A DNA stretch of 38,633 nucleotides, taken from the IMG/VR virus record IMGVR_UViG_3300045286_000101, positions 1-38,633 of that record, one strand, 5' to 3'. The translations under genes were made by a program, and so were the position numbers. Below are positions 1,595 through 29,188 of this stretch, one piece after another. Source of the stretch: a virus. A model generated the notes under the pieces. That model searched no databases and had not been told where the DNA came from. It saw only the letters and a program-made list of their open reading frames with translations. Every line of letters begins with the position of its first letter. Position 1 is the first letter of the stretch.

Positions 1595-2809
1595 GTGCCC
1601 ATCGTCGAATTGCAACGACGGCTCCGAGAGGCGGGAAGAATTCGCCTCGGCGACAAGGGCGGCCGCAACGGGGCACCCCGGAAGCTCGCCACGTTCCGTC
1701 TGACCGGTCCCGACCGGAAGCTGCTCGAGGCCGCAGCCGCGGTGTACGGCGGCACGGTCGAGCCGTGGCCGGAGATGGACGGCCAGTTCCAGGTCACGAC
1801 CGAGGCGACGTCGATGGACGTCATCATCCCGCCGACGGAGATGGCCCACTCGGTCTGGTACGAGCAGTGGTCTGCTGGGGGCTGCAACCGGCGGTGCGAC
1901 GGGACGTGGGACACGATCACCGACGCTGCGTGCGACTGCGATCCGGAGAACCGGGCGTGCGCGCCGCACACGCGCCTGTCGGTGATGCTGACGGCACTGC
2001 CCGGTATCGGTGTGTGGCGGTTGGACACGCAGGGTTGGAACGCCGCCGCTGAGTTGCAGGGCGCGGTCGACATGATCCAGCAGGTCGCGGCGCGCGGGAC
2101 GTTGCTCCCTGCCCGGCTGATTCTGGTGCGTCGAGAGTCGAAGGCGCGCGATCGGAACGGGAAGGTGACGACCCGGAAGTTCGTGGTGCCCGCGCTCGAC
2201 GTCGACGTCCAGATGGCCGGAGGCGCCGCGATCGGCGGGTCGAGCACCGTCGCGATCGCTGGTGCGCGTGGTCAGCTCGAGGCCGGGCCGGGGTTCACGC
2301 CGGTGCCGCCGGCGGTCGAGTCGGGCCCGTCGATCGCGGAGCAGGCCGCACCTCGGGAGCCGAGGCCGCGGCGTGCGAATGCTGCGGCCCCGTTGAAGGG
2401 GTCGGGCCGGTCGCGCCGCAAGGAGTCTTCCGTGCCGCCGGCGGAGTCGGCCGGAGAGGTGGACGAGGCCGGACCGTCGAGCTCTTCCCCCGAGGGTTCC
2501 GGTCCTGGCCCGTCCGCCGAGCGTTCGGCGGAGGACAGGGAGCGTGCGCAGCGCGTCGCGATGATGATCGCCGACTACGGGCTCGAGTCGGACGAGGAGC
2601 GCCACCGGTTCCTGCTCGCGTTTTCTGGGGGCAGGTTCTCGTCGGGGTACGACGTGACGCCTCCGGAGATGGCGCAGATGCGTGCTGCGTTGGTGCGCAT
2701 GAAGCGCGGTGAGCTTGCGATCGCGGATGGGGCGGACGGTCCGATTCTGGTGGATACGAAGAGTGGGCTTGTTCCGACGCGCCCACACGACGAAGGGGAG
2801 ACCGAATGA
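1595..2809 (+). CDS. Conserved phage protein resembling recombination directionality factors
   Basis: The 404-residue protein has a GTG start directly after the previous TAG. The N-terminus MPIVELQRRLREAGRIRLG, the IIPPTEMAHSVWYEQW segment and a Cys cluster at about 95-125 (GGCNRRCDGTWD, ACDCDPENRAC) resemble a large family of actinobacterial and phage proteins often annotated as recombination directionality factor-like, by analogy to phiC31 gp3. Residues about 225-320 are a low-complexity Pro/Ser/Arg/Glu linker, and the end is a small helical domain. No serine or tyrosine integrase is visible in the genome, so a role in excision is uncertain; a DNA-binding role in replication or recombination fits the neighbours. 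The family assignment is from memory of sequence style. Confidence 0.6.
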   Translation: MPIVELQRRLREAGRIRLGDKGGRNGAPRKLATFRLTGPDRKLLEAAAAVYGGTVEPWPEMDGQFQVTTEATSMDVIIPPTEMAHSVWYEQWSAGGCNRRCDGTWDTITDAACDCDPENRACAPHTRLSVMLTALPGIGVWRLDTQGWNAAAELQGAVDMIQQVAARGTLLPARLILVRRESKARDRNGKVTTRKFVVPALDVDVQMAGGAAIGGSSTVAIAGARGQLEAGPGFTPVPPAVESGPSIAEQAAPREPRPRRANAAAPLKGSGRSRRKESSVPPAESAGEVDEAGPSSSSPEGSGPGPSAERSAEDRERAQRVAMMIADYGLESDEERHRFLLAFSGGRFSSGYDVTPPEMAQMRAALVRMKRGELAIADGADGPILVDTKSGLVPTRPHDEGETE

Positions 2810-12267: not shown

Positions 12268-13236
12268 ATGGCCGTGACGGCCGCAACCAAGACCAGCGAC
12301 TTCGATGCGAAGCTCCTGCCGCCCCACATCTCGGAGGCGATCTTCGAGCGGGCGGCGCAGCAGTCCGTGTTCCAGTCGCTCATCCCTCGAGTGCCGCTCT
12401 CGTACAACGGTGAGGCGATCCCGGTCGTGACCGGCCGGCCCGTCGCCGGCTGGGTGTCGGAGGGTGGCCAGAAGCCGGCCACCAAGGGCACGATGACCCT
12501 GAAGACGATCTCGCCGAAGAAGCTCGCCGCGATCGCGGTCGTGGCATCCGAGGTCGTCCGGGCCGACCCGGGCGGGTACGCGACGAACCTCCAGCCGCAG
12601 CTCGCCGAGGCGTTTGCCATCGCGTTCGACTACGCGGTCGCCCACAACCTCGGCGGTGACGGCACCGGCTCCGGCCCGTTCTCCACGTACCTCGACCAGG
12701 CCACCAAGACGTCCGAGATCGGCACCACGTCCGTCGCGAACGGCGGCGTGTACGCCGACTTCAACGCCGCGCTCACGAAGATCGTGTCGACGAAGGACGC
12801 CTCGAACCGCCGGTACCGGATGACGGGCGTCGCGATCGACTCCGTCCTGGAGCCGGTGATCCGCGGCGCGGTCGACACGACCGGCCGGCCCGTGTTCGTC
12901 GACCTCGCCCGAGACGTGACGTCCGGTGCGATCGCCGCCGCCGGCACGATCCTCGGACGCCCGTCGTTCATGGGCGAAGGTGTCGCCACACCCGACCTCG
13001 ACACGGTCGTCGGTTACGCCGGCGACTTCTCGCAGGCCGCGTGGGGTGCCGTCGGATCGATCAGCTACGCGATCAGCACCGAAGCCACCGTCACCATCAA
13101 CGGCTCGCTCGTCTCCCTCTGGGAGAACAACCTCGTCGCGATCCGCGCCGAGGCCGAGTACGGCTTCCTGCTGAACGATGCCAACGCGATCGTGAAGCTC
13201 ATCAACACGAACAACAGCCCGGTCACCTCGAGCTGA
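12268..13236 (+). CDS. Major capsid protein (HK97 fold)
   Basis: The 322-residue protein starts at ATG 12268 with AAGGAGA upstream. Features typical of HK97-fold capsids are the QSVFQSLIPRVPL/ NGEAIPVVTG N-arm region, VSEGGQKPATKGTMTLKTIS, the E-loop/A-domain border at VVASEVVRADPG, and the C-terminal AIRAEAEYGFLLNDANAIVKL. There is no N-terminal delta domain, in keeping with the separate scaffold gene. A strong hairpin follows the gene. Confidence 0.92.
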   Translation: MAVTAATKTSDFDAKLLPPHISEAIFERAAQQSVFQSLIPRVPLSYNGEAIPVVTGRPVAGWVSEGGQKPATKGTMTLKTISPKKLAAIAVVASEVVRADPGGYATNLQPQLAEAFAIAFDYAVAHNLGGDGTGSGPFSTYLDQATKTSEIGTTSVANGGVYADFNAALTKIVSTKDASNRRYRMTGVAIDSVLEPVIRGAVDTTGRPVFVDLARDVTSGAIAAAGTILGRPSFMGEGVATPDLDTVVGYAGDFSQAAWGAVGSISYAISTEATVTINGSLVSLWENNLVAIRAEAEYGFLLNDANAIVKLINTNNSPVTSS

Positions 13237-13306: not shown

Positions 13307-13921
13307 TTGGATCCGCTCGCGACCGCCGACGACGTGCAGGCCCGCCTCGGTCGTGCCCTCACCGACACCGAGCTCTTCCGGATCGACGCCCTCATCGGCG
13401 ACGCGTCGGAAGCCGTCAGGGACAAGTCGGGCCAGCAGTTCACCCCGGGAACGTCGACGACGACGTTCCGGCCAGCAAAGGGCCGGATCCGTCTTCCGCA
13501 GCGTCCCGTCACCGCGGTCGCGTCGGTCACCGACATCTACGGCAACGACCTCGCCGCGGTCCGTGTCGGCGACACCGAGTACGTGCAGCTGAACCTGTCG
13601 CCGCTCAACGCGTGGGAAATCGAACCGTACCGGTGCGGCCTCACCGAAGTGGTCGTCACCTACGACCACGGCGATACGGAGGTCCCGGAGAAGATCGTCG
13701 GTGTCGTCTGCTCGATCGTGTGTCGTGCACTCGGCATGGACCCTGCGAATCCGGGTGGCACCGCCACCCAGGAATCGATCGACGGGTACGCGGTCACCAC
13801 CGGTGGTGGCGTCGCGACGTCGAGCGTGGTCGCGCAAGGCGCGCTCGGGATGCTCCCATCCGAGATCGAGATCTGCGAGAAGTTCAAGCGGCCGTCGTCC
13901 CCGATCGTCACGTTCGCGTGA
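13307..13921 (+). CDS. Head-tail connector (adaptor) protein
   Basis: The 204-residue protein is assigned TTG 13307 as start because GAGGAGG (13293-13299) lies 7 bases upstream; GTG 13301 would sit almost on the ribosome site. The N-terminus (LATADDVQARLGRALTDTE) and ASEAVRDKSGQ match the helical connector family (HK97 gp6 / SPP1 gp15 type), followed by a beta region with RIRLPQRPVTAV. It binds the portal ring after packaging. Confidence 0.82.
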   Translation: MDPLATADDVQARLGRALTDTELFRIDALIGDASEAVRDKSGQQFTPGTSTTTFRPAKGRIRLPQRPVTAVASVTDIYGNDLAAVRVGDTEYVQLNLSPLNAWEIEPYRCGLTEVVVTYDHGDTEVPEKIVGVVCSIVCRALGMDPANPGGTATQESIDGYAVTTGGGVATSSVVAQGALGMLPSEIEICEKFKRPSSPIVTFA

Positions 13922-14256
13922 GCATCGAGCGGTTCTTCACCCGGCAAGCGACCGTGACCCATCCTGCGGTCGTGTCCGGGTACGGTGACGCCACTCGCCT
14001 CGACTACACAGTGCCGCCGGCGACGACCGAGACGGTCATGGGCTGGCTCGCCCGCTACTCGGTCAGCCAGGTCACGACCGACACGCGCGACACGCCAGTC
14101 GGCAACTACATCTTCCGCTGCCCGGCCGACTCGAACATCGGCGCGACTGACCGGCTCACCGTCGACGGGCAGGACTTCAAGATCCAGGGCGAGCCGTGGA
14201 AAGCGCCCACACCCGGCGGCGCGCATCACCTCGTGGTCTCCCTCGACTTCCCGTGA
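13918..14256 (+). CDS. Head-closure / head-tail connector protein
   Basis: The 112-residue protein starts at GTG 13918 (GTGA overlap). It is beta-rich, with a late GNYIFRCPADSNIGATDRLTVDGQDFKIQGEP layout seen in head stopper proteins of siphoviruses. It follows the adaptor as expected. The next connector gene is displaced by the glycosyltransferase block. Confidence 0.75.
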   Translation: MSIERFFTRQATVTHPAVVSGYGDATRLDYTVPPATTETVMGWLARYSVSQVTTDTRDTPVGNYIFRCPADSNIGATDRLTVDGQDFKIQGEPWKAPTPGGAHHLVVSLDFP

Positions 14257-15167
14257 ACGTCCTCGCTGTGCTGCCCCAGTACATGCCGTGGTCGCGCGTC
14301 GGCTCGTGGATCACGACCCACGACTATCTCGCCGGCCTCGCGCACCGCGGACACCACGTCGACGCCACAACGCTCCGACCGACCGACCCGTACGAGATCG
14401 ATGGCGTGCATGTCAACGGGCAGATCGAGCAGCCGGATGTCGGGATCTGCCATCTCGGTTCGCCGCCGTCGGTCGGGCACAACCTCTCGCGCCTCGGCGT
14501 CCCGGTGGTGCGGATGGCGCACGGGCACAGTCCCGACAACGCCGCGCATCTGGATGCCACACCGACAGCACTGGCGATCTTCGCGAGTCAGGCGCTCGCC
14601 GATGACACCGCTTGGGACGGGCCGCAGATGGTCGCTCATCCGCCGGTGTTCCCGGACCGGTACCGGGTGAAGCCCGGCCGGAAGATCACGCTGTCGAACT
14701 TGTCGCAGGACAAGGGCGGCGCGCTGCTCGGCTGGATCACCGAAGCGCACCCGGAGCTCGAGTTCCTCGGCGTGCTCGGCTGGGGGTACCAGTACGAGCA
14801 GCAGGGGCCGAACGTCGAGGTGATCGCCCCTGTCGAGGACATGCGCACCGTCTACCGGCAGACGCGGGTCCTGTTGATGCCGTCCGATCGGGAGTCGTAC
14901 GGGCGGTGCGCGGTCGAAGCCGCGTGTTCGGGGATCCCGACGATCGCGCATCCGTCGCCGGGGCTGATGGAGGCGATGGGCGACCATGCGATCTGGGTCG
15001 ACCGTGCGGACCGGCAGGGCTGGATCGACAAGGTCGGCGAGTTGCAGGACCCGGCCGTATGGCGGGAAGCGTCCATCAACGCGCGTGGTGCAGTGCAGTC
15101 GGACCCTGACGCGACGGTCGACAACGTGTGCGAAGCGATCGAGGAACTGTGTCGCAGCAGCGTGTAA
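14253..15167 (+). CDS. GT-B glycosyltransferase (GT4-like)
   Basis: The 304-residue protein starts at GTG 14253 (GTGA overlap). It has two Rossmann-like halves: MPWSRVGSWITTHDYLAGLA at residues 11-30 and, in the donor domain, ITLSNLSQDKGG (145-156) then MPSDRESYGRCAVEAACSGIPTI (209-231) with the E-x7-E pair E214/E222 typical of GT4 enzymes. It would transfer a sugar from a nucleotide donor in the cytoplasm. It is the first of three glycosyltransferases inserted between head-tail connector genes, so virion proteins or a host glycan are likely acceptors. Confidence 0.87.
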   Translation: MNVLAVLPQYMPWSRVGSWITTHDYLAGLAHRGHHVDATTLRPTDPYEIDGVHVNGQIEQPDVGICHLGSPPSVGHNLSRLGVPVVRMAHGHSPDNAAHLDATPTALAIFASQALADDTAWDGPQMVAHPPVFPDRYRVKPGRKITLSNLSQDKGGALLGWITEAHPELEFLGVLGWGYQYEQQGPNVEVIAPVEDMRTVYRQTRVLLMPSDRESYGRCAVEAACSGIPTIAHPSPGLMEAMGDHAIWVDRADRQGWIDKVGELQDPAVWREASINARGAVQSDPDATVDNVCEAIEELCRSSV

Positions 15168-15853
15168 CGGTCCTGATCCCGCGGCGTGAGGACGGAGCCC
15201 GCCGCGACGAAATCTGGTCCTACGTGAAGAGCCGATGGGCCGGCTGGGATCTCCACGAAGGCCACCACACCGACGGGCCGTTCAACCGGTCGGCTGCCAT
15301 CAACCAGGCGTCCCGATCCGCAGGCGATTGGGACGTGGCAGTCATCGCCGACTCGGACAGCTTCGTCGGAGAAGACCAACTCCAAGTCGCGATCGACGGC
15401 TGCTGGTCCGACGGCCGCATGTGGCTCGCCTACACCGAGTACGGCTACCTCGACTGGCCGATGTCCGACCGGATCATGGCCGGCTACACGGGCGACTGGC
15501 TGCCGGGTGTCGAGTTCACGATGACGAACACCTGCAGCTCGATGGTCGTCGTCCGCCGCGACGTGTGGAACCAGTGCCGCGGCTTCGACGAAGGCTTCCG
15601 CGGGTGGGGATTCGAGGACATCGCGTTCTCGCATTCGGCGCAGACCTTCGGTGGAGGGCTCTCGCGTGCGCCGGGCCGCTGCTGGCACTTGAAGCACCTG
15701 CCGAGCATCGAACGCTCACCTCAGCAAGACACGGTCAACCGGCTCCGCGCTGAGCGGTACCACGCCGTCGCGTACGACAAGCCGGCGATGCGCGCACTGA
15801 TCGATGAACTGAGGGCCGATGATCCCAGCGCGGTTGGTCAGGACGGTCCCTGA
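15149..15853 (+). CDS. GT-A glycosyltransferase with GWGFED motif
   Basis: The 234-residue protein starts at GTG 15149, overlapping the GT4 gene by 19 bases. The DSD motif at 68-70 (AVIADSDSF) is the metal/nucleotide-sugar site of GT-A enzymes. GFDEGFRGWGFEDIAF (145-160) matches the GWGxED acceptor-site motif of the GT7 C-terminal / polypeptide GalNAc-transferase-like family. The motif suggests transfer of Gal, GalNAc or a similar sugar; the actual substrate is unknown. Confidence 0.85.
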   Translation: MSQQRVTVLIPRREDGARRDEIWSYVKSRWAGWDLHEGHHTDGPFNRSAAINQASRSAGDWDVAVIADSDSFVGEDQLQVAIDGCWSDGRMWLAYTEYGYLDWPMSDRIMAGYTGDWLPGVEFTMTNTCSSMVVVRRDVWNQCRGFDEGFRGWGFEDIAFSHSAQTFGGGLSRAPGRCWHLKHLPSIERSPQQDTVNRLRAERYHAVAYDKPAMRALIDELRADDPSAVGQDGP

Positions 15854-16430
15854 ACAGACCCCGCTCCAGGTCGAGCAGTGGTGGGCCCACGCTCGATCGC
15901 TCCACCCCGACTGGGATTGCGTCACCCTCCGCGACCCGCTCGACCCTGCGGAGTTCCCGTTCACCGGCGACTACTGGCGGCATTGCCACAACGGTGCGCA
16001 ACTCGCCGGGCTGATCCGCCTCGAAACGATCTACCGGCACGGCGGTCTGTACATCGATTCGGACGTGGAGCTGTTCCGGCCGCTCGACCCGCTCCGCTCC
16101 CTCGACTGTTTCGCTGCTTGGGAAGACGAGAACGTCGTCCCTGACGCCGTATTCGGCGCAACACCGCAACACCCGGCGATCCTCGAATGTCTCGACCTCG
16201 CGCTCTGCCGGCTCATGTCGACCGTCACGGACTGGCGGACCGGGAACGGCGCGTGGTCGACCGGCCCGGGCGTGTTCACCACGGTCCTCCCCCAAGCCGA
16301 CGGGGTGACCCTGTTCGGTCCGGAGGCGTTCTACGTGCCGCACTACACGCAGAAGGACCGGCTCGGTGATCCGCCGCACCCGGACGCGTACGGCCGGCAC
16401 CACTGGCACGGATCCTGGTTGGAGGCCTGA
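15819..16430 (+). CDS. GT32-like glycosyltransferase (DXD sugar-binding region)
   Basis: The 203-residue protein starts at ATG 15819, overlapping its neighbour by 35 bases. The RLETIYRHGGLYIDSDVELF segment with DSD at 80-82 is the Gly_transf_sug (PF04488) core of GT32 / capsular polysaccharide-type transferases. MIPARLVRTVP at the start matches the usual first strand (IPxxIxxxW-like). It ends in a TGATG overlap with the next connector gene, so the block is translationally integrated into the structural operon. Confidence 0.86.
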   Translation: MIPARLVRTVPEQTPLQVEQWWAHARSLHPDWDCVTLRDPLDPAEFPFTGDYWRHCHNGAQLAGLIRLETIYRHGGLYIDSDVELFRPLDPLRSLDCFAAWEDENVVPDAVFGATPQHPAILECLDLALCRLMSTVTDWRTGNGAWSTGPGVFTTVLPQADGVTLFGPEAFYVPHYTQKDRLGDPPHPDAYGRHHWHGSWLEA

Positions 16431-16693
16431 TGGCGCTGAACTTCAAGCTCAAGCTCAACACGCGCGGCGTCAACGAGCTCCTCACCAAGAGCATCAAGCC
16501 GGATCTGAAGAAGCGGATCGACCGTGTCCAGGCCGTCGCATCGCAGGGCATGGAGAACCCCGATGGGATGACCGTCATCGACGCGTCGGATCACAACCGC
16601 GCTCGCTTCATCGTGCTCACGACCACCGAAGAGGCGATGCACGGCGAAGCGAACGACCGACGCCTGACGCGCGCGCTCGACGCTGCACGATGA
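16430..16693 (+). CDS. Small head-tail connector protein
   Basis: The 87-residue protein starts at ATG 16430 (TGATG). It is short and basic at the N-terminus (NFKLKLNTRGVNELLTKSI) and sits between head closure and tail terminator, where HK97 gp10-type neck proteins are encoded. The family assignment rests mainly on position. Confidence 0.68.
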   Translation: MALNFKLKLNTRGVNELLTKSIKPDLKKRIDRVQAVASQGMENPDGMTVIDASDHNRARFIVLTTTEEAMHGEANDRRLTRALDAAR

Positions 16694-17088
16694 GCAACGA
16701 AGCGTTCGCCGATGTCGAGGCAGCGGTCATGTCTTGGCTCGGCGGTGGCCTCACCGAGTACGTCGGCGATCAGGTTCCGAGCAAGGAACAACGACCCGGG
16801 ATCGTCGTGATCCGGCTCGGCGGACCACGCATCAACGTCGCAGCCGAAGACGCAACCGTCACCATCGAAGCGTGGGCGCAGCCCGGGCAGTGGCCGGCGG
16901 CGCATGCGCTCATCCTGCGAGCTCGGCAACGGATGCACGCGGTGGTCGGCACGCTCGTCGACGGCGTGACGTTCGTGAAGGTCTCCGAGTTCGCCGGCCC
17001 GGGCCGGCTCATCGATCCCGTCTCCGGGGCCGCGCGGTACGTCATGACGTTCTCGCTGCGAGTCCGCACGCTCGCACCGACCCCGTAA
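16690..17088 (+). CDS. Tail terminator protein
   Basis: The 132-residue protein starts at ATG 16690 (ATGA overlap). It has the alpha/beta arrangement of gpU-type terminators: an N-terminal helix (FADVEAAVMSWLGG), central strands with VTIEAWAQPGQWPAAHALILRAR and an RYVMTFSLRVR C-terminal strand. It directly precedes the major tail protein, as usual. Confidence 0.8.
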   Translation: MSNEAFADVEAAVMSWLGGGLTEYVGDQVPSKEQRPGIVVIRLGGPRINVAAEDATVTIEAWAQPGQWPAAHALILRARQRMHAVVGTLVDGVTFVKVSEFAGPGRLIDPVSGAARYVMTFSLRVRTLAPTP

Positions 17089-17126: not shown

Positions 17127-17687
17127 GTGGCCGATGACAGCACCAAGACCTTCCCGGTCGCGTCGGGCGAGATCTACGCCGCCGCGGTCGGGACCACCGC
17201 CCCGACGTCCCCGAACTCCGCGCTCGTCAGCGCCTACACCAACGGCATGGTCGGCTTCCTCGGACCCGACGGTGTCACCATCACGCCGGCGCGGCAGACC
17301 CAGGACAACAAGGCGTTCCAGAACGGCGCCGTCGTCAGTACCCAGCAGACCGAGTTCAAGGCCACGGTCGACTTCGCGATGCTCGAGTACAACGAAGAGA
17401 CCGCGTTGCTCTACTACGGCAACGTGACCCACGTCGACACGACGTCGTTCTACTCGGACATGACCGCCGCGGCGATGCCGCACTACTCGTGGGTCATCGA
17501 GTTCGTCGACGGCGGTCTCAAGAAGACCCGTTTCTGGTTCCCGGACGCGAAGATCACCGACCAGTCGGCCGAGGTGTTCAAGAACGGCGACCAGGCCCTG
17601 TTGCCGGTGACGCTGACCGCGTACCCGGACTCGTCGGGCCGCTACTACCGCAAGTTCGTCGACCACGACATCACGGTGAGCTCGTGA
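17127..17687 (+). CDS. Major tail (tube) protein
   Basis: The 186-residue protein starts at GTG 17127 with AGGAGG six bases upstream, the strongest ribosome site in this region and fitting for an abundant protein. The sequence shows the beta-sandwich style of siphovirus tube proteins (IYAAAVGTTAPTSPNS, FVDGGLKKTRFWFPDAKITD, LPVTLTAYPDSSG). It lies between terminator and tail assembly chaperones. Confidence 0.88.
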   Translation: MADDSTKTFPVASGEIYAAAVGTTAPTSPNSALVSAYTNGMVGFLGPDGVTITPARQTQDNKAFQNGAVVSTQQTEFKATVDFAMLEYNEETALLYYGNVTHVDTTSFYSDMTAAAMPHYSWVIEFVDGGLKKTRFWFPDAKITDQSAEVFKNGDQALLPVTLTAYPDSSGRYYRKFVDHDITVSS

Positions 17688-26299: not shown

Positions 26300-29188
26300 A
26301 TGTCGCTCGACGCGCTCGACGGCCGCGCCCGTCGATTCCCCATCCTGCTGCCACTCGGCTACCCGAAGACCCTCGAATGGGAACTCTTCGACGACGCCGA
26401 GCTCACGCAGCCGACCGACCTGTCCGGCACGTCCGACTGGCTGCTGCGCGTCACGCGTGCCAGCCAGTCGGACCTGCCGATCACCGGCACGGTCTCGGGG
26501 AACATCGTCACAACGCCGCTACCGGACACGCTCAACGGCCGGTACCACCACACGCTCGAGACCGTCATCGGCAGCAAACGCGTCCCGTTGCTGACGGGAC
26601 CGCTGCAGTTCTCGAACGACGGGTCACCGTCGGGCATCCCAGCGTCAGACACGATCCGTGTCCAGCTCCACGTCGCCGACCGTGTCACCGTCGTCGGCAT
26701 CCTGGCCGGTAACGGCGGCGGCGGGTCGGGTGTCGCATGGATGGTGGACCCGCGTGAGTACGGCGCCGCTGTCGATGGGACTACTGACGACACAGCGGCA
26801 CTCAATGCGGCGATCGTCGCCGCAGGAGCGGCAGGAACCGTTCTGGTCCCGCCCGGCAATATGGCGATCGGCTCGCAGATCACCCCGGTCGACGCGACGA
26901 CACCCCTGCGGCTCGTCGGCCTCGGCGCTGCCCGCTCCAAGATCACTGTCCTCACGGGAACGACCGGCCCGATCTTCGACCTCGCGTTCACCGGCAACCA
27001 ACCGAACGTCGAGCTCGCCGACTTCGAGATCGACGGCATGGCCGTCCGCACCCAGGACCTCGTCTACCTCGACGGTGTGAACAAGCCGCGCATCAACCGG
27101 GTGAAACTCCGCGGCGGGCGTCGTCAGGTGTGGCTCGGGATGGTCACACAGGCCGAGCTCGACGTGTGGTGCATGAACCCGACGGAGACGGGACTGTATG
27201 TCCTGCCACCGAACCCGATTTCGCTCGCGAATCCGGCAGGGCAGCAGCCGAACTTCGCTGTTCGTGGCTTCCACTACGAGGCGACGACCGCGAACGACAC
27301 CATCGACGTGCCGGCCGCGATCCACGTCGCGTGTTACACGACCGCGATCACGATGCAGAACGTCGAGATCACGCAACGGTTCGCGACCGGGGCAGGGACA
27401 CTGCAACGTGGGATATGGTTCGATGTCCCGGAACCGGGCGCGAACACGTACTGCGCGCTAGCGACCGCGCTCACCGACACGACCGGCACCACCGTCGTCG
27501 TCAAAGCCGGGACCGATCCGGCAGTCCTCGATTTCCTCGCTCCCGGGGCGACGATCGTTATCGATTCGACGACCGGGAACCGTGAAGCGATCACCCTCGG
27601 TGCTTCGTCGGACGGGTTGACCTGGACGGGCTGTACCCGCAACGCGGACACGCTCGGCGCGCACACTCACGCGGTCGACGCGACGATCCAACTCCCGATC
27701 GGTGGTCGGGGCACGTTCGCCTTCTTGCGGGGTCTGCTCCTCGACGGTGTGAACGGGCCGGCGATCGCAGCGAGCAACGCCCGCGAGCTCCAGATCGGCG
27801 GCCAGTCGTTCATTTCGACGCATGCGGGCGGCGGGTTCCCGGCGGTGCTGATCGAAGGGTACGGCCGGGACGTGCAGATCGGCGGCGAGTCGTGGCTCGC
27901 CGGGACCGGCATCGAGTTCGCGTCCGGGTCCGTCACGAACGTCGTGTCGATCGACGACGTGTTCCTCCCGCAGACCAGTCCCGGCGGGGCGCTCGTCTTC
28001 CCCGCTGACGCGACGGTCACGAACCTCCTCGTCGGCGACAACGTGACGACGACGTGGGGACTCGCCGAAGACATCAACGGTGTCGACGAAACGAAAATGG
28101 CCCGGATCATCGGCGCGATCGACCACGACAAGCCGAACCTCCCGCGCACGCTACGCGTGACGGACTTGTCGCTTGACGACGCGATCCACTGGAAGAACCC
28201 GGTCGCTGACAAGTCCCGGTTCTTCACGTTGACGGCGTCGGGGACGTTGCAGGAACGGAATAACGCCGGTTCGGTGATCTTCTCCCGGCAGGATTCGGGG
28301 ACAGAGATCCTGGTCGGTGGTACAGCGATTCGTGCGGTCGGGACGAACACGCCTGAGGGGCATGTGACCGCGGGCGTCGGTTCACTGTTCCTCCGCACCG
28401 ACGGTGGCACATCGTCGGTGCTGTATGTCAAGGAATCGGGGAGCGGGAATACCGGATGGGTCGCGCACGGAGGGTCGGGCGCGACGAACCTCGGCTACAC
28501 GCCATCGACCCGGGTCCTCACCTCGGACACCGGCGCGGACGTGACGCTCCCGCTCGTCGACGGGTCGAACCCGGGCCTGATGGCCTCCGCCGACTACACG
28601 CGACTGAGCAACACATCCGGGACGAATACCGGCGACCAAGACCTCTCCGGGCTGGCGACATCTTCGGCGCTCGCGTCGGAAGCGTCGGCGCGCGCCACCG
28701 CTGACGGGCTCCTCGTCCCGAAGACCACCACGGTCAATGGTCATGCCCTCACCGGTAACGTGACCGTCACCGCGGCGGATGTCGGCGCGGACGTGGCGGG
28801 CGCTGCCGCAGCCGCGCAAGCCGCGTCGCAGCCCGTCGACTCGGACCTGACCGCGATCGCCGCGCTCGCGACAACCAGTTACGGGCGCGCGTTGTTGACC
28901 CTCGCCGGCCTGTCGAATCTGCTGGCGACGGTCGGCCCGACTGGTACCCCGTCGTCGTCGACGTATCTGCGGGGCGATGGAGCATGGGTCGCAGTCTCCG
29001 GCGGTGGCGGCGGCGACATGCTCGCCGCGAACAACCTGTCGGACCTGACGAACGTGGCGACCGCACGGACGAATCTCGGTCTCGGCAATGTGAACAACAC
29101 AGCAGACGTGAACAAGCCGGTGAGCACCGCGCAGCAGGCCGCGATCGACGGCGCCTCGTACAACACTCTGTTCATGGTGGGAGTCTGA
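26300..29188 (+). CDS. Tail spike with pectate-lyase-like beta-helix
   Basis: The 962-residue protein starts at ATG 26300. Residues 1-130 resemble baseplate-attachment (BppU-like) domains. From about 150, VDPREYGAAVDGTTDDTAA is the entry motif of the pectate_lyase_3 right-handed beta-helix, continuing to about residue 560. The rest is fibre-like: low-complexity repeats, SGLATSSALASEASARATADG and an end with NNLSDLTNVATARTNLGLGN, typical of tail fibres. It probably binds or cleaves a surface polysaccharide. Confidence 0.85.
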   Translation: MSLDALDGRARRFPILLPLGYPKTLEWELFDDAELTQPTDLSGTSDWLLRVTRASQSDLPITGTVSGNIVTTPLPDTLNGRYHHTLETVIGSKRVPLLTGPLQFSNDGSPSGIPASDTIRVQLHVADRVTVVGILAGNGGGGSGVAWMVDPREYGAAVDGTTDDTAALNAAIVAAGAAGTVLVPPGNMAIGSQITPVDATTPLRLVGLGAARSKITVLTGTTGPIFDLAFTGNQPNVELADFEIDGMAVRTQDLVYLDGVNKPRINRVKLRGGRRQVWLGMVTQAELDVWCMNPTETGLYVLPPNPISLANPAGQQPNFAVRGFHYEATTANDTIDVPAAIHVACYTTAITMQNVEITQRFATGAGTLQRGIWFDVPEPGANTYCALATALTDTTGTTVVVKAGTDPAVLDFLAPGATIVIDSTTGNREAITLGASSDGLTWTGCTRNADTLGAHTHAVDATIQLPIGGRGTFAFLRGLLLDGVNGPAIAASNARELQIGGQSFISTHAGGGFPAVLIEGYGRDVQIGGESWLAGTGIEFASGSVTNVVSIDDVFLPQTSPGGALVFPADATVTNLLVGDNVTTTWGLAEDINGVDETKMARIIGAIDHDKPNLPRTLRVTDLSLDDAIHWKNPVADKSRFFTLTASGTLQERNNAGSVIFSRQDSGTEILVGGTAIRAVGTNTPEGHVTAGVGSLFLRTDGGTSSVLYVKESGSGNTGWVAHGGSGATNLGYTPSTRVLTSDTGADVTLPLVDGSNPGLMASADYTRLSNTSGTNTGDQDLSGLATSSALASEASARATADGLLVPKTTTVNGHALTGNVTVTAADVGADVAGAAAAAQAASQPVDSDLTAIAALATTSYGRALLTLAGLSNLLATVGPTGTPSSSTYLRGDGAWVAVSGGGGGDMLAANNLSDLTNVATARTNLGLGNVNNTADVNKPVSTAQQAAIDGASYNTLFMVGV

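Follow-up and report, generated by a model that had tools for sequence, protein, structure and literature searches.

Three glycosyltransferases of different families in the head operon of a likely actinobacterial siphovirus are predicted to modify the C-terminal tails of its capsid and tail-tube proteins

Three adjoining glycosyltransferase genes, designated GT1, GT2 and GT3, probably serve an actinobacterial siphovirus as a cassette for virion glycosylation, in which soluble enzymes add a short glycan to the serine/threonine tails of the major capsid protein (MCP) and of the major tail/tube protein (MTP). The DNA analyzed (the window, which is the whole stretch of 38,633 bases) is an IMG/VR virus record. 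Its plus-strand late operon is continuous and encodes, in this order, TerL, portal, protease, scaffold, MCP, head-tail adaptor (Ad1), head closure (Hc1), GT1, GT2, GT3, neck, tail terminator, tail tube, and tape measure (Table 1). The MCP ends in ...NNSPVTSS, the predicted acceptor, and the MTP in ...DITVSS, the second predicted acceptor. Neither a promoter-like site nor a plus-strand terminator-like site was detected in the scanned interval spanning GT1 to GT3 (14253-16430).

Table 1. Features of the window, with the supporting domain and family matches.
Feature	Coordinates	Strand	Product	Matches
Gp3-like recombination directionality factor	1595-2809			PF18897, 9e-39
MCP	12268..13236	+	major capsid protein	PF05065, 7.6e-22; phrog_10, 4.9e-55
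Ad1	13307..13921	+	head-tail adaptor	phrog_442, 1.1e-24
Hc1	13918..14256	+	head closure; left neighbor of GT1	phrog_501, 2.2e-12
GT1	14253..15167	+	GT4-like GT-B, EX7E E214/E222; 304 aa, GTG start	PF13692 (Glyco_trans_1_4), 1.6e-11, 45 bits (cut-off 27); PF00534 (Glycos_transf_1), 1e-9, 38.6 bits (cut-off 26.4)
GT2	15149..15853	+	GT-A, Glyco_transf_7C/galactosyltransferase-like, DSD and GWGFED; 234 aa, GTG start	PF02709 (Glyco_transf_7C), 4.4e-6, 26.7 bits (cut-off 23); phrog_1721 (galactosyl transferase), 5e-20
GT3	15819..16430	+	GT32-like GT-A, DSD (D80, D82); 203 aa	PF04488 (Gly_transf_sug), 1.1e-8, 36.1 bits (cut-off 23)
Neck	16430..16693	+	neck protein; right neighbor of GT3	phrog_387, 5.9e-13
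Tail terminator	16690..17088	+	tail terminator	PF11367; phrog_123
MTP	17127..17687	+	major tail/tube protein	PF25681, 8.7e-18; phrog_117, 6e-37
Pectate-lyase-like protein	26300-29188		962 aa	PF12708

GT1 combines a Glycos_transf_1-type GT-B C-terminal domain with an EX7E pair, the two features that define GT4 enzymes, and both glutamates of the pair were invariant in an alignment of four relatives. GT2 has the Glyco_transf_7C domain, the DxD motif and the GWGxED motif of GT7-like enzymes, a classification that leaves its sugar specificity aside. Residues D68, D70, and D157 of GT2 were present in 15 of 15 aligned rows, and W153, G154, and E156 were nearly invariant. The AlphaFold model of GT2 (pLDDT 93) matched β4GalT/GalNAcT structures, including β4GalT1/7, which are GT7/GT27-type crystal structures. 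GT3 displays the PF04488 domain with a DxD motif that is characteristic of GT32; the DSD motif, together with G75, G76, and D82, was invariant among 14 homologs, and the model (pLDDT 89) matched the fold of the GT32-type enzyme Och1 (TMq 0.70) and that of SetA. The three genes overlap each other by 19 nucleotides (GT1/GT2) and 35 nucleotides (GT2/GT3), and their neighbors by 4 nucleotides (GTGA, Hc1/GT1) and 1 nucleotide (TGATG, GT3/neck). The GTG codon at 15149 was chosen as the start of GT2 since the homologous overlap is retained in the independent contig L016. The GT genes of L016 are 56-69% identical to those of the window and, because of this conservation, GT1 to GT3 are real genes rather than chance open reading frames. 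Thus, coordinates, motifs, Pfam matches, and the folds of GT2 and GT3 agree with the claim of the earlier note that glycosyltransferases of three families are embedded in the head-tail operon, with frames overlapping each other and both neighbors, between head closure and the next connector. The structure predictions that it had called for, obtained here for GT2 and GT3, yielded the GT7/GT27-type and GT32-type matches.

A search of relatives for the same cassette revealed that GT1-GT2-GT3, referred to as cassette A, recurs in the same order in independent contigs at three connector junctions. These are MCP|Ad1 (L006, L007, L041, L043, and L436), Ad1|Hc1 (L127/L388, and L193 with GT1 and GT2 only), and Hc1|Neck (the window, L016, L117, and L118). 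The site occupied in the window, at which the earlier note had considered a three-family cassette notable, is therefore one of three used by such cassettes. In most copies of cassette A, GT3 is followed by a SAM methyltransferase gene, which is absent from the window and from L118. Two unrelated glycosyltransferase/methyltransferase cassettes occupy the same junctions in relatives. Cassette B encodes four GT-A/GT2-family enzymes, a homolog of the window's GT2 and, in some members, a methyltransferase (L046, L079, and L084; partial in L018, L042, L045, and L048; also L442/L443). Cassette C, present in L056/L058 and partially in L019, encodes a PF13524 glycosyltransferase, two methyltransferases, one of which is of the FkbM type, and an RXYLT1-like protein. 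The methyltransferases of the sister cassettes are of the FkbM and Methyltransf_23/11 types. L134 resembles a hybrid of cassettes A and B, and GT1 alone is located directly 3' of the MCP gene in many prophages and contigs, at times in two copies. Alignments were required to find these relatives, as a scan of viral contigs with the single GT1 protein returned no match; a plasmid search with GT3 returned distant partial matches only.

The C-terminal residues of late proteins were compared over hundreds of relatives, most of the loci having been retrieved by seeding on GT1 or on capsid relatives. Genomes were scored as GT+ if they harbored glycosyltransferase genes between those for the MCP and the tail terminator. 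With this definition, under which the GT HMMs may miss other families and genes elsewhere in incomplete contigs are uncounted, the last residue of the MCP was serine in 112 of 128 GT+ versus 1 of 25 GT- genomes (p = 2e-16), and that of the MTP in 84 of 88 versus 1 of 22 (p = 1e-17). Serine or threonine was found within the final two residues of all 128 GT+ capsid proteins versus 9 of 25 GT- ones. Defining GT- independently from any model, as genomes with no room for a cassette (2 kb or less from the MCP stop codon to the tail terminator), gave 112/128 versus 1/29 for the MCP and 84/88 versus 1/26 for the MTP. Among contigs retrieved only by capsid or portal scans, the MCP ended in serine in 16 of 17 GT+ and 2 of 29 GT- members. 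In a second capsid family, the association was also observed for the MCP (19/20 versus 3/10, p = 4e-4), and was not significant for the MTP (2/5 versus 1/9). The C-termini of TerL, portal, protease, and scaffold showed no association of serine with glycosyltransferases, and the last residues of Ad1 and Hc1 leaned in the opposite direction to those of the MCP and MTP. Within genomes, MCP and MTP tails matched each other in 27 of 88 cases versus 22 after shuffling, which is not a significant excess (p = 0.06). Since the terminal serine is spelled TCC, AGC, and TCG, selection apparently operates at the amino-acid level. A nucleotide-level artifact due to an overlapping start codon or ribosome binding site was rejected, as all three codons are used and few of them permit an RTGA overlap.

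The sister genomes L063 (GT+) and L073 (GT-) illustrate the association, the MCP and MTP tails being ..NGGS and ..NGGS in the former versus ..NGD and ..ATP in the latter. Independent pairs were concordant in 2.6 of 3 cases in the first family and 2.0 of 3 in the second, with none opposed; the Che8 family provided an additional case. The presence of glycosyltransferases switches few times per capsid tree, and there were about 5-6 phylogenetically independent contrasts, of which 0 were opposed, with no single tree reaching p<0.05. Some matches are fragments or clade-mates. By itself, this pair analysis is suggestive of the link between serine tails and glycosyltransferases, and not significant. 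The small number of contrasts leaves some room for the unlikely explanation that the enzymes modify another virion component, such as minor tail proteins, the serine tails being clade-linked and carried along by recombination. The head module may travel as a block, and a raw clade association is also present in the tail terminator, which ends in serine in 51 of 95 GT+ versus 1 of 23 GT- genomes with independent pairs concordant in 1.0 of 4. However, the MCP and MTP, which flank the cassette, both end in serine, whereas Ad1, Hc1, and the neck protein adjoin it and do not. In addition, the glycosyltransferase genes of phages Che8 and Firecracker sit elsewhere and yet both serine tails are present.

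The tail terminator ends in ..PVS in 44 of the 95 scored GT+ genomes, in GT1-only clades such as those of L160 and L174. This protein could be a third acceptor, or the motif could be a clade trait.

The sequence of the MCP tail also followed the type of the cassette, which argues against the modification of another component. In the window's capsid clade, genomes with cassette A ended in TS[ST] in 10 of 10 cases (three of them assigned from contigs showing GT1 only), the overall motif being P-V/I-T-S-S/T. The tail was [ST]GS, i.e. S/T-G-S, in 7 of 7 genomes with cassette B and QTS in 2 of 2 with cassette C. Cassette type switches at least two times in this clade, and four times on the best tree. 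Tail and cassette type were concordant in all independent pairs on supported branches (2 pairs; 4 available on the best tree). Adjacency alone is insufficient to account for this co-switching because one or two genes separate the cassette from the MCP gene in the window, L016, L193, L042, L048, and L018. Recombination of a short head segment might nevertheless account for it.

The enzymes might instead act on the host envelope (teichoic acid, glycolipid, or arabinogalactan) to exclude other phages, in the manner of glycosyltransferases of lysogenic conversion. In annotations, phage glycosyltransferases from several families appear as morons, and many relatives of the window are prophages. We nevertheless consider this explanation quite improbable. 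The genes overlap within the late head operon, none of the three proteins contains a strong transmembrane segment (maximum KD19 of 1.21 or less), and the genes searched included neither a polyprenyl-sugar nor a flippase partner. Modification of the envelope would also leave unexplained both the association with C-terminal serine and the co-switching of tail and cassette. Seroconversion by GtrABC involves a flippase, a membrane polyprenyl glycosyltransferase, and a membrane glycosyltransferase acting on the host O-antigen. Like the GtrABC genes, the cassette would be a phage gene set that alters glycans and switches surface chemistry, but neither a flippase nor a polyprenyl-phosphate glycosyltransferase domain was found among the window proteins searched.

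Phage glycosyltransferases can also act on DNA, as does the T4 β-glucosyltransferase on phage DNA. Glucosylation of modified phage DNA by GT1 to GT3 is, in our estimation, extremely improbable. The genes are located in the head operon, sister cassettes encode FkbM and Methyltransf_23/11 methyltransferases, and no base-hydroxylating or base-modifying enzyme was recognized among the window proteins searched, in a record that may be incomplete and that includes some small unscanned open reading frames.

Modification of the MCP and MTP is in agreement with the glycosylation of phage virions, described by Freeman et al. (2023), as cited in PMC12363180 and PMC11256854, for a few mycobacteriophages including Che8, Corndog, and Myrna. 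According to the citing papers, capsid and tail-tube proteins are glycosylated in Che8-type phages (PMC12363180; PMC11256854), and the glycosyltransferases Che8 gp110 and Corndog gp38 are called essential (PMC12363180). Capsid and tail tube are the targets reported there, whereas those of the window are predicted. Che8 resembles the window in encoding its own glycosyltransferases, in the homology of gp109 to GT2 (4.6e-47 with the GT2 HMM), and in an MCP (..NKTGS) and an MTP (..SDGS) that both end in Gly-Ser; no other late protein of Che8 that was examined ends in serine. Reportedly, the sugars of the glycosylated virion proteins described in 2023 are carried at the C-terminus. The three glycosyltransferase genes of Che8 differ in being located at the right end of the genome, those of the window being in the head operon. 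The window has the GT4-like and GT32-like enzymes in addition, and none of the models of GT1, GT2, and GT3 matched Che8 gp108 or gp110. These comparisons, together with the serine ends that track the cassette, the tail motif that switches with its type and the absence of strong transmembrane segments, support the proposal of the earlier note that virion proteins are glycosylated, without the specificity for the Hc1|Neck site.

Other named phages gave mixed results. The prophage prophiGD57-2, in which glycosyltransferases are annotated (GD57 gp75 matches the GT2 HMM at 3.7e-46), has MCP and MTP tails ..RAGS and ..IAGS, and both proteins end in V or A in AGM1, Dubu, and phiSASD1, whose whole genomes have no annotated glycosyltransferase. 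Firecracker, a Corndogvirus, ends its MCP in ..LVGS and its MTP in ..KGDS, and its gp33-36 also comprise a methyltransferase and glycosyltransferases inside the head operon; they differ in lying between portal and protease and in being, by annotation, a GalNAcT-like enzyme and an unassigned glycosyltransferase. Phrappuccino gp142-145 and prophiGD91-2 gp73-76 include adjoining GT3 and GT2 homologs and a SAM methyltransferase, but are outside the head module in the order GT3-GT2-GT2, and GT1 was not found. In the Streptomyces phage TurkishDelight, gp20 (L004:10433-12469) is homologous to GT1 and is encoded between the capsid gene and the major tail gene, and the MCP and MTP end in serine. In contrast to GT1, gp20 is a 678-aa protein with two tandem GT1-type GT-B domains, and no GT2 or GT3 homolog was found beside it. 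Two proteins do not fit the serine rule: the MCP of Myrna (gp99), a phage reported to have glycosylated proteins, ends in alanine, and the annotated MTP of GMA2 ends in arginine. The Myrna protein gp98 (L477/L479), encoded directly upstream of gp99, ends in ..LAGGS.

In the mechanism that we propose, GT1 to GT3 would be translated late in infection along with the head and connector proteins. The soluble enzymes would act in the cytosol with host nucleotide sugars as donors and transfer a short glycan to the exposed serine/threonine tails of the MCP (..PVTSS) and tail tube (..ITVSS). The serine would be primed by one enzyme and the glycan extended by the other two; the three folds, and the methyltransferases of relatives, make a multi-sugar glycan built in sequence plausible. 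In relatives, a methyltransferase may cap this glycan. The cassettes are modular: at the three junctions between head and connector genes, three unrelated sets of glycosyltransferases and methyltransferases are found, with a C-terminal tail that varies according to the set. We are evenly divided on a broader proposal, according to which the connector region of head operons in actinobacterial siphoviruses is a coat-switching locus where unrelated cassettes move among the three junctions. The acceptor tails of the MCP and MTP, two proteins without relation to each other, would be exchanged or would evolve in concert so as to fit the priming enzyme of the cassette, with the free C-terminal serine as the acceptor signal. 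If true, phages would have interchangeable sugar coats, comparable to O-antigen switching in bacteria.

Virion glycosylation was already known, and Corndogvirus also has glycosyltransferases in its head operon. A modular island that uses three connector junctions, and whose acceptor tails are specific to the cassette, seems to be new, according to a limited check of the literature. Our results suggest that virion glycosylation is common in uncultured actinobacterial siphoviruses and offer a rule for the acceptor, a C-terminal serine on both capsid and tail tube. Exchangeable cassettes would diversify phage surfaces, which bears on the natural role of the glycans and on the recognition of phage particles, by antibodies as well as in soil or water.

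The capsid protein from a cellular genome that is closest to the window MCP (62% identity) belongs to a prophage (L193) of Aquihabitans sp. G128, a member of the class Acidimicrobiia, Actinomycetota. For this reason, the host of the window phage is likely to be actinobacterial. The L193 capsid tail, ..SPVTSS, is that of the window, and its GT1 and GT2 genes are those found between Ad1 and Hc1.

Several additional observations were made. GT1-GT2-GT3 cassettes are present in L011, L130, L131, L133, L136, L137, and L153, contigs in which no head model matched and which represent a different virus type or context; L011 contains large paralogous open reading frames and has a lower third-position GC content. 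At the Hc1|Neck junction of L063 (5269-7915), a weak UDPG/GDP-mannose dehydrogenase-like open reading frame and a large one, which overlaps the GT3 match and includes an FkbM methyltransferase domain, are both absent from the sister L073. The window encodes a recombination directionality factor, which suggests that the phage is temperate and uses a serine integrase; among the window proteins searched, none was recognized as an integrase. The 962-aa pectate-lyase-like protein is likely to be the tail spike.
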